Source: Nannobrachium achirus (taxonomy: Eukaryota > Chordata > Actinopteri > Myctophiformes > Myctophidae). From it: 64,000 nt of DNA. The DNA is taken from assembly GCA_963921795.1 (NCBI GenBank), contig OY997642.1, positions 29,473,154 to 29,537,153 of the forward strand. The letters run 5' to 3'. The notes beneath the pieces were generated by a model. That model was not told the DNA's origin and did no database searches. It saw nothing but the letters and a program-made list of their open reading frames with translations. Made by a program: the position numbers and the translations under genes. This document shows positions 1,846 to 59,548 of the stretch, piece by piece (position 1 is the stretch's first letter; each line of letters begins with the position of its first letter).

Positions 1846-1920
1846 GTGAAAATAGCCAAACTACAAGCTCACAACACCTCTCACTGTGAGGTGTTGTGAG
1901 CTTGTAGATCGGCTATTCAC
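1846..1920. repeat. 75-bp near-perfect palindromic repeat
   Basis: Left arm GTGAAAATAGCC then ACTACAAGCTCACAACACCT; right arm AGGTGTTGTGAGCTTGTAGA then TCGGCTATTCAC. It is an almost perfect inverted repeat with a loop of a few bases. This is the best example of a dispersed family with about 15 full or half copies in this window. A fragment resembling a hAT terminus (TTTCTCAACCTTTT) lies just upstream, near 1699-1735. Confidence 0.9.
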
Positions 1921-2012
1921 TATGTTTGCCTCTTTCGTACCGTACGTAATATTGCAAATGGTCACAGGGATGTCAGGCCCTGTCACAGGGATATCTGGCT
2001 TGTATAATGTCC

Positions 2013-2219
2013 ATATCATGGTCAGTATCGTGTCAGTATCATAGTCAGTATCATGGTCAGTATCATGATCAATATCATGGTCAGCATCATGTCAGTATCA
2101 TGTCTGGCTTGTATAATGTCCAGATCATGGTCAGTATCATGTCAGTATCATGGTCAATATCATGGTCAGCATCATGTCAGTATCATGGTCAGTATCATGG
2201 TCAATATCATGGTCAGTAC
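2013..2219. repeat. Minisatellite block 1 (TCATGGTCAGTA unit)
   Basis: Tandem 12-bp units TCATGGTCAGTA / TCATGGTCAATA alternate with shortened ATCATGTCAG units. Because 12 is a multiple of 3, the block stays open in several frames. The resulting proteins are artefacts. Confidence 0.95.
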
Positions 2220-2621
2220 CAGACTATAGTACTTGTCCGACTTTATTCCATCCATCTTGACAGGAATATTGTTATTGTTTGTAATGTTAGTTGAAATATA
2301 TTTTGGGACATATCTGACTAGTTATATTTATCTGGCCTCGATCGGACCCCCTCTGATTAATCCAGGACGTCCGTTTTCGTGGGCAGGATTTATGTTGGCT
2401 GAAATCAAGTGATATTCTAGGCCAGATCTGACTAGTCATGGTTTGACTTGATCTGGCCCCAATCGAGACGTCACTGATTGGTCCAGGCCCTGACCGTGCT
2501 TGCTGGGACAGCTAGAAGGGAGGTTGAGATAATCTGAGAGCATGCTGCAGGAGTCTTGTGTCAACACTTATATCTCAAACAACTCCCATGGAGCTCTTTA
2601 GTACCGTAACTAAAAGTATAG

Positions 2622-3477
2622 CATCATGTCAGTATCATGGTCAATATTATGGTCAGCATCATGTCAGTATCATGGTCAATATCATGGTCAGTATCATGGT
2701 CAGTATCATGGTCAATATCATGGTCAGTATCATGGTCAATATCATGGTCAGCATCATGTCAGTATCATGGTTAATATTATGGTCAGCATCATGTCAGTAT
2801 CATGGTCAATATTATGGTCAGCATCATGTCAGTATCATGGTTAATATTATGGTCAGCATCATGTCAGTATCATGGTTAATATTATGGTCAGCGTCATGTC
2901 AGTATCATGGTCAATATTATGGTCAGCATCATGTCAGTATCATGGTTAATATCATGTCAGTATCATGGTCAATATCATGGTCAGTATCATGGTCAGTATC
3001 ATGGTCAATATCATGGTCAGTATCATGGTCAATATCATGGTCAGCATCATGTCAGTATCATGGTTAATATTATGGTCAGCATCATGTCAGTATCATGGTC
3101 AATATCATGGTCAGTATCATGGTCAGTATCATGGTCAATATCATGGTCAGTATCATGGTCAGTATCATGGTCAGCATCATGTCAGTATCATGGTCAATAT
3201 CATGGTCAGCATCACGTCAGTATCATGGTTAATATTATGGTCAGCATCACGTCAGTATCATGGTTAATATTATGGTCAGCATCATGTCAGTATCATGGTT
3301 AATATTATGGTCAGCATCATGTCAGTATCATGGTCAATATTATGGTCAGCATCATGTCAGTATCATGGTTAATATTATGGTCAGCATCATGTCAGTATCA
3401 TGGTTAATATTATGGTCAGCATCATGTCAGTATCATGGTTAATATTATGGTCAGCATCATGTCAGTATCACGGTTAA
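2622..3477. repeat. Minisatellite block 2
   Basis: The largest block. Higher-order units of about 34-35 bp combine GTCAGTATCATGG, TTAATATTATGG (or a CAATATTATGG variant) and TCAGCATCAT. The TTAA-containing units supply the target site of the insertion at 3478. Confidence 0.95.
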
Positions 3478-4155
3478 CTCATACAGTGCCATCCGGCCAC
3501 AAGGGGCGCTAGAGTGCCAGAAATGTATCCATAGACCTTCATTATAGCTTTCGTTGACCCTCCCCCAACTGGCTTGTGTTTTCACTCCAGTCAATGCTAT
3601 GGAGGACGAGAGGAGGAAGCTAGCTGACACGTAGCCAAAATGCTAACCCATTTAGAAGCGCGATCGAAAGCTATTTCAGCCGCAAAAAACGTTCTCTTTG
3701 GGTCTGGGAACACAATCCGGAGAAAATCCTGTCTAAAGATGTGATTTATTATTGGAGTGGGCGGCGCGATGCGGCCGTTAGCGCGAATACGGCCCGTGGA
3801 TGGCCGAGTCTAAGTCCCGGGCATGGATGGACGTTTAGACCGGGGCTTCGTTGAGGCCTCCGATAAAATAATTCATTTCATTAAAAAAGCCGAACATGTT
3901 CGGGATAGGCACACTGGACTACGTTCCGGAAGCGGCGCTGAACATTTGGTGAACATTGGGGGGCTCAAAAATGTATTTTAAACCATTTTTAATGGAATAT
4001 ATCGTCGGACCATGTAAAATGGCTAGCTGGCTAGCGTAGGACGAGCCAGGACCACCCACGACTCTACAAGCAGCTCAGGGTAAGTCAATTAATAAAAAAG
4101 AAATTGTATTGGATTGAAATAAAGCCGAACATGTTCGGGATAGGCACAGAATGAG
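3478..4155. mobile_element. piggyBac-like non-autonomous transposon (TTAA TSD)
   Basis: A 678-bp insertion inside the minisatellite, flanked by TTAA at 3474-3477 and 4156-4159. The termini are imperfect inverted repeats: left CTCATACAGTGCCATCC, right (reverse complement) CTCATTCTGTGCCTATCC. Removing the element plus one TTAA restores a normal minisatellite unit (CGG-TTAA-TATTATGGTCAGC). A 28-bp subterminal segment containing the palindrome CCGAACATGTTCGG occurs twice (3886-3913 and 4121-4148). There is no transposase ORF. TTAA duplication is the hallmark of piggyBac, although some other superfamilies (for example Kolobok) also use it. Confidence 0.88.
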
Positions 4156-4452
4156 TTAATATTATGGTCAGCATCATGTCAGTATCATGGTTAATATTAT
4201 GGCCAGCATCATGTCAGTATCATGGTTAATATTATGGTCAGCATCATGTCAGTATCATGGTTAATATTATGGTCAGCATCATGTCAGTATCATGGTTAAT
4301 ATTATGGTCAGCATCATGTCAGTATCATGGTCAATATTATGGTCAGCATCATGTCAGTATCATGGTTAATATTATGGTCAGCATCATGTCAGTATCATGG
4401 TCAATATCATGGTCAGCATCATGTCAGTATCATGGTCTATATCATGGTCAGT
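4156..4452. repeat. Minisatellite block 2, right part
   Basis: Continuation of the TTAATATTATGGTCAGCATC array after the inserted transposon. It ends near the unique sequence GTACCAGACGATAGTACTTG, which also follows block 1 (about 2215), so the whole block with its flank looks duplicated. Confidence 0.93.
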
Positions 4453-4526
4453 ACCAGACGATAGTACTTGTCCGACTTTATTCCATCCATCTTTCCATCC
4501 ATCCATCTTTATTTTGCTGCACAGTT

Positions 4527-57786: not shown

Positions 57787-57885
57787 TAGGATCTCCTTTT
57801 AGTTGACCTTGGCTTGTAGCCTACCAGTGATTTGTACTGTAAATCATGAAACAGTACAAAATCAATCAATCAATCAAAAACCTAA
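57787..57885. repeat. GATT-tailed repeat fragment, inverted copy
   Basis: AGGATCTCCTTTTAGTTGAC, CCAGTGATTTGTACTGT and terminal CAATCAATCAATCAA; partner of 43,281-43,405. Confidence 0.65.
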
Positions 57886-58084
57886 CCCAAAATAATAATA
57901 TAAATACATTTTAAATAGGCTAGTTAGTGCTTACGCCAATTACGTGGATGAATGCATAACAAGTCAGCTATCCATCCATCCAGCCACACTCTGCAATAGA
58001 ACAATACTTAGACAATATAGATTGCATGGTCAGAAATAAAGTGAATGCAGAAGCAAACTTGACACACACGCACGCACGCGCGCG

Positions 58085-58163
58085 CGCGCACACACACACA
58101 CACACACACACACACACACACACACACACACACACACACACACACACACACACACACACACAC
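58085..58163. repeat. (CA)n microsatellite
   Basis: Preceded by a CGCG run (58,077-58,088); about 38 CA units. Confidence 0.95.
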
Positions 58164-58330
58164 GAAAATAAATGAAAGTAAAGTAGGCCTGTTGGCTAAA
58201 AATAGTCCTCAGGTTGCAATGTGTTGTAAGCTTGTAGATTTTTGGTGAGAACATTTTGTATAGACTATTGAGGGAAATAAGTACAGAGCCAACTCAGGAC
58301 ATGTTGCAGCATCAGTGGTAACTACACTCA

Positions 58331-58336
58331 TTTATT
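58331..58336 (-). terminator. dpyd: Candidate dpyd poly(A) signal
   Basis: AATAAA on the minus strand, 1.23 kb past the stop codon, followed by U/G-containing sequence. It would define a 3' UTR of about 58,310-59,561. Confidence 0.4.
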
Positions 58337-59177
58337 GTCATAGATCACATTTAATAACAGAACAAAGTAGAATCAATCCATAATCAGAATCCCAATCAGG
58401 TTCAGATATGTGCAGCCCTCAAAACAACACAACAATTACTGCAATGTGTAGCATTATTTCTACTGCATAAGCTTGGATAAACATACACCTGAACAAACTG
58501 TACTCAGCTTCAGTAGTGAGTGTCACATTCACAGTAAAATCTCAATTTCTAAATAAACAGAGCACAAATGCAATGTTTCCATTTTGCACACACTTGGGAG
58601 TTAAATTAACACCAGGGGATTTTACTGTTCCTTCATTTCTACAATGTTTGCCTTTGATTAGCTGGTGATCATTTAGTGATTATCTGTTTTACTGTTATGT
58701 TTTTACATCCATATGATTGTTAACAACATTAACATTATTTGTATAATACAATCAAGAGAGTGTATAGAAAGTTAAAGCAGAGCAAACCATTGTTAAATAT
58801 CAATTCAGAGTATATATATACTGTAAATATACATTATTTATAGGTAGTACTAGTAACATGTCTTTTCTCTATCTTGGTGCCTCTGTCTTCCCATCTCCAA
58901 AATATTAGTTTAGAATTATACAAGCATGACAGTATTATCATACAATATGACACTCATATTCTAAACAAGCCATCAGGTAAATGGTTGTGGTTGACCCCTC
59001 ACCAAAAAAGATAAATAGTAGCTAGGGCAGTGTAGAGAGTAAAAAAAAACATAATTAATGTGTCCTACATCTGAGCTTTGACTCAAATATAATTTTTTGA
59101 CACATAAATTATGTTTATATGAAATGGATCAACAAAAATCATTCTGGAGACAGAGACAGAATGATCATCCTCTAAAC

Positions 59178-59548
59178 CAGTGGTTCTCAAACCTTTTTAG
59201 ACCGTGAACCCCAAAATAAACATATTTGAATTGGGGACCCATATGCTTGGAATTGTAGGTATTACAATTAGTGTGTCTCGGTTCCACAGATGAATATTGT
59301 GAAAATAGTCGAACTACAAGCTCACAACGCCTCGCACTGCGAGGCATTGTGAGCATGTAGATTGGATATTTGACAGGTATTGGTATTAAAACGGTCTTGA
59401 AAGTCCTTAAATTGTCACTTTAAAAATGTGTGTTGGTTTGTTTACCATCGAGTGAGAAAAAAATGACATTAGGCTAATCATCTGGGGACCCCACAAAATA
59501 ATTTGGGGACCCACCTGCGGGTCCCGACCCACAGGTTGAGAACCACTG
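59178..59548. mobile_element. hAT (Charlie-like) MITE in dpyd 3' UTR
   Basis: 371 bp with ends CAGTGGTTCTCAAACCTTTT and AGGTTGAGAACCACTG, flanked by a perfect 8-bp TSD CTCTAAAC (59,170-59,177 and 59,549-59,556). It carries a full 75-bp palindrome (59,299-59,373). It lies 13 bp past the dpyd stop codon, so it forms much of the 3' UTR unless an unseen splice removes it. Confidence 0.93.

Follow-up and report, generated by a model that had tools for sequence, protein, structure and literature searches.

A palindrome of ~75 bp lies in about twelve transposon flank families of Nannobrachium achirus, and its arms covary between families

We analyzed a stretch of 64,000 nucleotides from the fish Nannobrachium achirus (assembly GCA_963921795.1, contig OY997642.1, positions 29,473,154 to 29,537,153 of the forward strand; hereafter the window) together with loci fetched from the same genome, and focused on a dispersed near-palindrome of ~75 bp, designated U. 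U is not a segment peculiar to a single transposon, since it is found in about 12 families of flanking sequence (F1 to F12). Its arms covary between these families, and one of them, F1, is a unit bounded by TTAA that carries U. We tentatively propose, with a probability of roughly 0.47, that U is the centre of old TTAA-type miniature inverted-repeat transposable elements (MITEs), that it was co-amplified in hAT MITEs, and that its arms were kept alike by template switching.

The arm core CGATCTACAAGCTCACAACGC was found at 15 places in the window when at least 17 of its 21 bases had to match, whereas the chance expectation, taken from 30 first-order Markov simulations, averaged 0.0 matches. A looser threshold of at least 14 of 21 bases gave 20 places versus 7.0 expected, and weak arms on their own are thus poor proof. 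Nine positions listed in the initial annotation were supported by nhmmer with E values of 2.8e-19 to 2.7e-7, each copy being scored by a model built without that copy. Four positions outside the model also matched (17640, E 8e-7; 22941, E 8e-6; 11867, E 3e-5; 45891, E 1e-5). By these counts and models, the dispersed near-palindrome that the initial annotation had described in the window is real; 13 of its 16 positions are firm, 10804 is weak, 58195 is borderline, and 17251 had no support from the model (E 3 to 5). When five copies were folded as RNA, four gave z scores of -8.2 to -12.5, and the truncated copy at 30832 gave -3.1. A known RNA family was rejected, because no Rfam family matched the window (0 at gathering scores).

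A genome-wide search, as had been suggested with the initial annotation, covered 1.66 Gb in 564 contigs. The exact 19-base core occurred 69,781 times (34,951 + 34,830), with 0 occurrences of the backward control, and, when up to three mismatches were allowed, the 20-base core occurred 634,585 times (317,854 + 316,731), with 21 (6 + 15) for the backward control. These controls, together with the simulated arm counts, led us to reject a chance origin of the repeat. The mean density is about one arm per 2.6 kb; the 15 arms of this kind in the 64-kb window amount to less than that average. The exact core was matched 8 times in viral and 3 times in prokaryote sequence collections; none of these matches extended into a palindrome, and they were read as chance. 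Searching open-access paper text for the letters of the arms and ends returned nothing related, as judged by title, and among open-access literature searched by topic there was no title on such a palindrome common to many families.

Copies were called with at least 14 of 20 bases per arm if the arms were paired and at least 16 of 20 if single. The fetched loci were the 39 best matches to the copy at 1846 (L020-L058), a biased sample, and 80 loci along contig C1 (L059-L138), which were picked around exact arms from the genome-wide core listings with some list positions skipped. The 119 fetched loci and the window gave 177 copies, of which 114 were two-armed and 77 of these had a 13-base spacer; the window, the one stretch not picked for an arm, supplies 13 of the 177. 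Reading 291 flanks outward from the core, we placed 223 in 24 clusters and merged these by hand, obtaining the 12 families plus one tandem array. With 160-base flanks, single-linkage clustering lumped 152 of the 177 copies and was dropped. The 97 copies on the C1 loci were distributed among F1 (32), F6 (9), F4 and F5 (8 each), F7, F9 and F12 (5 each), F2 and the tandem array (4 each), F8 and F10 (3 each), and F3 and F11 (1 each), with 9 unassigned.

The palindrome had been noted in two different hAT families; within the window this holds, with two hAT-type families, and the fetched loci extend it to the ~12 flank families. By the look of their ends, F2, F4, F5, F6, F7, F11 and, less surely, F8 resemble hAT MITEs. 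The host of F2 carries CAGTGGTTCTCAA... ends, which we take to be those of hAT elements, and by these ends it is filed as a putative hAT-type MITE. Flank homology joined F1, F4 and the window copies at 37742 and 11867 with z scores of 6.6 to 10.5, and linked to this group more weakly the window copy at 22456 (z 3.6) and F5 (z 2.5 to 2.8). As F4 is related to F1, one should not count 12 independent origins from the 12 flank families. At one locus of F8 (L042:1528), the outer arms were complementary well past the usual palindrome, which is perhaps a fuller foldback form of this family. The palindrome was repeated in tandem at locus L072, and locus L023 contained nine copies or single arms within ~1 kb, as if the palindrome were able to become a satellite.

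The initial annotation had suggested that pairing of the arms is itself under selection and that compensatory changes should be analyzed across copies. Using consensus sequences of eight families, the outer arms of a family matched each other at 6.25 of 8 positions, compared with 2.57 of 8 across families, and only 2 of 40,320 ways of permuting the partners (counting the true one) reached the total of the own pairs. Both sides had changed in 17 of 40 pairs among 14 copies, giving 50 double-change cells versus 20.6 (standard deviation 3.1) in shuffles, and 0 of 500 shuffles reached this value; these 14 copies were hand-picked rather than one per family, with the F2 type present four times, F5 twice, and F9, F11 and F12 left out. 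The arms thus covary between families. For swapping of arms, 69 of the 114 two-armed copies were kept (spacer of 13, at most 8 mismatches), and the 62 of these in named families entered the pooled test. Pairing with the own arm versus arms swapped among all copies was 0.618 versus 0.370 in the outer arm, 0.842 versus 0.821 in GAAAATAGC, 0.922 versus 0.903 in the core and 0.766 versus 0.698 in the centre, and the own value was reached by 0, 7, 0 and 0 of 1000 swaps, respectively. When the swaps were confined within families, the swapped values rose to 0.603, 0.833, 0.918 and 0.782, and 96, 22, 230 and 950 of 1000 swaps reached the own value. A slight pairing signal within families therefore remains in GAAAATAGC (22 of 1000). 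In F1 (23 copies), six double changes to the same base were counted versus 8.5 in shuffles. Since own arms pair better than swapped arms between families and about equally within them, the pairing appears to be set mainly at the level of the family or subfamily. Accordingly, the suggested selection on pairing stands only in part: the covariation is strong between families, while within them swapping hardly lowers the pairing, apart from the slight effect in GAAAATAGC and the surplus of double changes in F2 considered below. The F2 consensus moreover has mismatched arm positions, AAAC against GATC, which argues against pairing being strictly required.

The F1 unit, which carries the palindrome, is bounded by TTAA and lies within a hAT-type element having CAGGGGTCTTCAAC ends. 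It ends in TTAA with an inverted CCACTTGAACC end. The end GGTTCAAGTGG, matched at 9 or more of 11 bases, was present in 62 of 81 F1 flank ends and was followed by an exact TTAA in 51 of these 62; TTAA was found on both sides in 11 of 16 two-ended F1 units. When host flanks joined at one TTAA were used as the query, one sequence, L154, matched over the full span among the best 40 of 609 candidates scored, and it lacks the unit, has one TTAA and represents an F1 empty site. F1 was therefore filed as a TTAA-type MITE. Ends like GGGTTCAAGTGGTTAA (at least 12 of 16 bases) were detected in 77 of 283 flanks, of which 68 belonged to F1 and F5, while three controls gave 0 to 3. Such ends or homologous flanks join F1, F4, F5 (on one side) and the window copies at 11867, 37742 and 26531, and more weakly the copy at 22456. 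MITEs with a TTAA target (piggyBac-like) resemble F1 in the TTAA ends, the inverted CCACTTGAACC end and the empty site with a single TTAA; they differ in that U is also found in families in which no TTAA end was recognised.

The palindrome had also been suggested to move by itself. The outer boundary of the palindrome differs by family, each family having its own bases adjoining the common AAAATAGC, and no constant target duplication was seen around it. A TA stands beside GTG(A/G)AAATAGC on both sides in F3 and F6 and in single copies of F10, which hints at a TA-type element, and no such TA was present on both sides in F1, F2, F4, F5 and F7. Searches for host joints were made for F2 (best 40 of 1,627 candidates scored, 14 joint-spanning copies aligned) and F7 (best 40 of 620 scored, 20 aligned). 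By eye, clear scraps of the arms were retained in 9 of 14 F2 joints, the exceptions being L139, L144, L148, L149 and L152, and in 16 of 20 F7 joints, the other four (L172, L173, L176 and L177) having unequal lengths. The copies L144, L149 and L152 of F2 differ from a clean site by no more than a few bases, again with unequal lengths. No clean empty site common to copies was found among these 14 F2 and 20 F7 copies, and we read the joints as uneven deletions of the palindrome. Palindrome 6-mers were also counted at the joints, with 11 of 14 positive in F2 and 18 of 20 in F7, but this count was not used, as it includes chance matches, for example in L144. The varying boundaries, the lack of a constant duplication and the differing losses at the joints give no support to self-movement, which is nevertheless conceivable. 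The palindrome was filed neither as a self-mobile MITE nor as an RNA gene.

Two observations concern exchange at the palindrome. One of the 114 two-armed copies (L054:963) is bordered by F1 sequence on the one hand and by F10 sequence on the other, a chimera joined at the palindrome. In L045, and less cleanly in L025 and L033, the AAAC/GATC difference of F2 is reversed with respect to the flanks, as would be expected from an inversion of the palindrome, in what is a biased sample.

These results can be brought together as follows. U would stem from an old group, by now split up, of short TTAA-type elements that are non-autonomous, and would be their inverted-repeat centre. Units bearing U may have landed in hAT-type MITEs and multiplied along with them, so that U would now be present in about a dozen flank families. 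At the founding of a new family, template switching in the U hairpin would copy one arm onto the other, so that the two arms, along with a few adjoining bases, would change together. Afterwards, ordinary copies would decay under little or no constraint, often losing U through uneven deletion. That all families go back to a common TTAA origin and that template switching causes the symmetry are both inferences to which we give about even odds. According to two reports, template switching homogenises short inverted repeats in RNA genes and in yeast coding genes and makes compensatory changes (PMC8794818, PMC8604942). As described there, such repeats are similar to U in that the arms change together without need of selection, whereas they belong to RNA genes and yeast coding genes and U is a module of transposons (PMC8794818, PMC8604942).

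Several observations weigh against the origin of U in TTAA-type elements followed by template switching. No TTAA-type end (at least 12 of 16 bases, within 150 bases) was detected in F2, F3, F6, F7, F9, F10, F11 and F12, the window copy of F10 type having such an end at 11 of 16, under the cut-off. Apart from weak scores among 325 pairs, F4-F6 (z 3.4) and F1-F9 (z 2.6), the flanks of the same eight families showed no standout homology to the TTAA group; because of these two results, the link of the eight families to the TTAA group is one that we infer. The site L154 fits a site before insertion or a precise excision alike. No template-switch event was seen directly. In F2 (19 copies), ten double changes to the same base were counted versus 3.2 in shuffles, a value reached by 0 of 2000, and five of the ten represent one common subtype, CATGCTC. 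Finally, the three near-clean F2 joints also fit a self-mobile palindrome with a 2-base AT duplication, which makes the proposed reading slightly less probable and self-mobility slightly more so.

It is possible, though rather doubtful, that U entered each hAT-type family separately by hairpin template switching or recombination, without a TTAA carrier, and is a swapped module. The eight families without a TTAA-type end at the cut-off, the mostly unrelated flanks across families, the pairing of the outer arms of each family with each other and the F1/F10 chimera joined at U are all in agreement with separate entry, but such a chimera was found only once in the 114 two-armed copies, and among the best 40 candidates scored in each search no pre-capture host allele was identified for F2 or F7. 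That U itself is a tiny MITE of ~75 bases which transposes with a short target duplication, like MADE1 in humans, is unlikely. Its palindromic form, the TA on both sides in F3, F6 and F10 (single copies) and the AT duplication that would fit L144, L149 and L152 would be explained in this way; the differing family boundaries, the five families without a two-sided TA, the unequal lengths of the three near-clean F2 joints, and the F7 joints, with arm scraps in 16 of 20 and unequal lengths in the other four by eye, would not.

Selection on source elements alone would give the same pairing picture as template switching. The hairpin may have been selected as DNA or RNA in a few multiplying source elements, where it could act, for instance, as an enhancer of transposition or as a non-coding RNA, while ordinary copies decay. 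The covariation between families with little constraint within them, and an inner core that is ~92% paired while the outer arms vary, are what such selection would produce. Nevertheless, F2 multiplied with its mismatched consensus arms and the window had no Rfam match, and we regard this explanation as improbable. The origin of U in TTAA-type elements with later template switching thus remains our preferred, though tentative, reading.

In the window, whose copies are given without strand, two-armed copies lie at 1844..1920 (right flank of F2 type), 11030..11106 (flank of F8 type), 22456..22533 (left flank of F10 type, with the TTAA-like end of 11/16 at the right) and 59297..59372. The last of these is an F2 copy in a hAT-type element at ~59178-59555, just past the last exon of dpyd; it lies ~190-265 nt beyond the stop codon of this exon, which matches dihydropyrimidine dehydrogenase structures. 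Centre-deleted copies were found at 26531..26589, with a GGGTTTAAGTGGTTAT end (14/16) on the right side, and at 37742..37802, with an exact GGGTTCAAGTGGTTAA end on the right side. The sole right arm at 11867..11895 has a flank homologous to that of 37742, and another sole right arm is present at 17640..17673. The copy at 30832..30890, in an F2 host whose hAT-type element begins near 30719, had been described as full (30834-30888), but its right arm is mostly lost. The partial copies noted at 21242 and 43128 are present, and they have lost opposite arms: that at 21243..21304 retains the left arm with the right mostly lost, that at 43127..43176 the right arm with the left mostly lost, and both lie inside hAT-type elements of F11. 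One arm at 22941..22971 stands at the centre of a bigger inverted repeat (22885-23022). The remaining copies are a weak degenerate one at 10804..10862 (leave-one-out E 0.0076), with a centre like that of 11030, a weak one at 45891..45961 (E 1.2e-5) and a borderline arm at 58209..58239 (E 0.048). A hAT-type sibling element without the palindrome occupies 40399..40732 on the minus strand and was read as a private deletion; it was rejected as an empty site, because its junction was spanned by none of the other 39 sequences scored (best 40 of 588). Following the copy at 21243, an 18-base tandem repeat GCGTCGGCTATTTTCGGT (21289-21379) contains the outer arm of the palindrome, GGCTATTTTC.

Other repeats were also observed in the window. 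A DIRS-like element at 50151-56867 has inverted ends of 143 bases that are 97% complementary and a frame of 1121 amino acids with a weak phage-integrase match below the family cut-off. The frame of 908 amino acids at 46717-49440 on the minus strand contains reverse transcriptase, RNase H and integrase domains, and by the order of these domains it is presumably that of a Ty3-like retrotransposon. Minisatellite arrays on the 12-base unit ATCATGGTCAGT extend over 2002-5143 with periods of 35, 70 and 423, and a GC-rich 143-base tandem repeat at 18939-20101 has long open frames on both strands. Two tandem arrays have a period of 33 bases (7779-7879 and 25757-25856), the former lying inside an open frame of 319 amino acids without a Pfam match.

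Short palindromes and shared modules of mobile elements are known from other systems. MADE1 is an 80-bp palindromic mariner MITE of humans with one family, one boundary and a TA duplication; it is similar to U in being a short near-perfect palindrome of high copy number, whereas U lies inside many families with differing boundaries. Angel elements are palindromic MITEs of zebrafish for which hairpin-based amplification has been proposed, and by description they resemble U as short inverted-repeat elements of fish. The REP/BIME palindromes of bacteria, mobilised by RAYT proteins, are likewise small and very numerous, but unlike U they are not carried in larger transposons. CORE, V and Deu are central domains common to unrelated families of short interspersed elements (SINEs) and, like U, are conserved central modules in otherwise differing mobile elements, although these domains are not palindromes and SINEs are retrotransposons. 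A DNA-transposon counterpart of such domains would be a central palindrome that is handed on among unrelated MITE families through template switching at its hairpin and may help its carriers to multiply; we consider this idea speculative and its correctness doubtful. In Atlantic cod, gadMor-hAT-1784 is described as a hAT-derived non-autonomous MITE with internal inverted repeats (PMC12368964). The likeness is one of description, and that report concerns a hAT family and its relatives, whereas here one palindrome extends across many families (PMC12368964).

Covariation of base pairs is usually taken as a sign of a selected structure. With more than 600,000 arms in this genome, and with covariation between families and little within them in the sampled copies, U provides a natural test of whether template switching alone is enough. 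The presence of one module in many transposon families also makes exchange between families testable.

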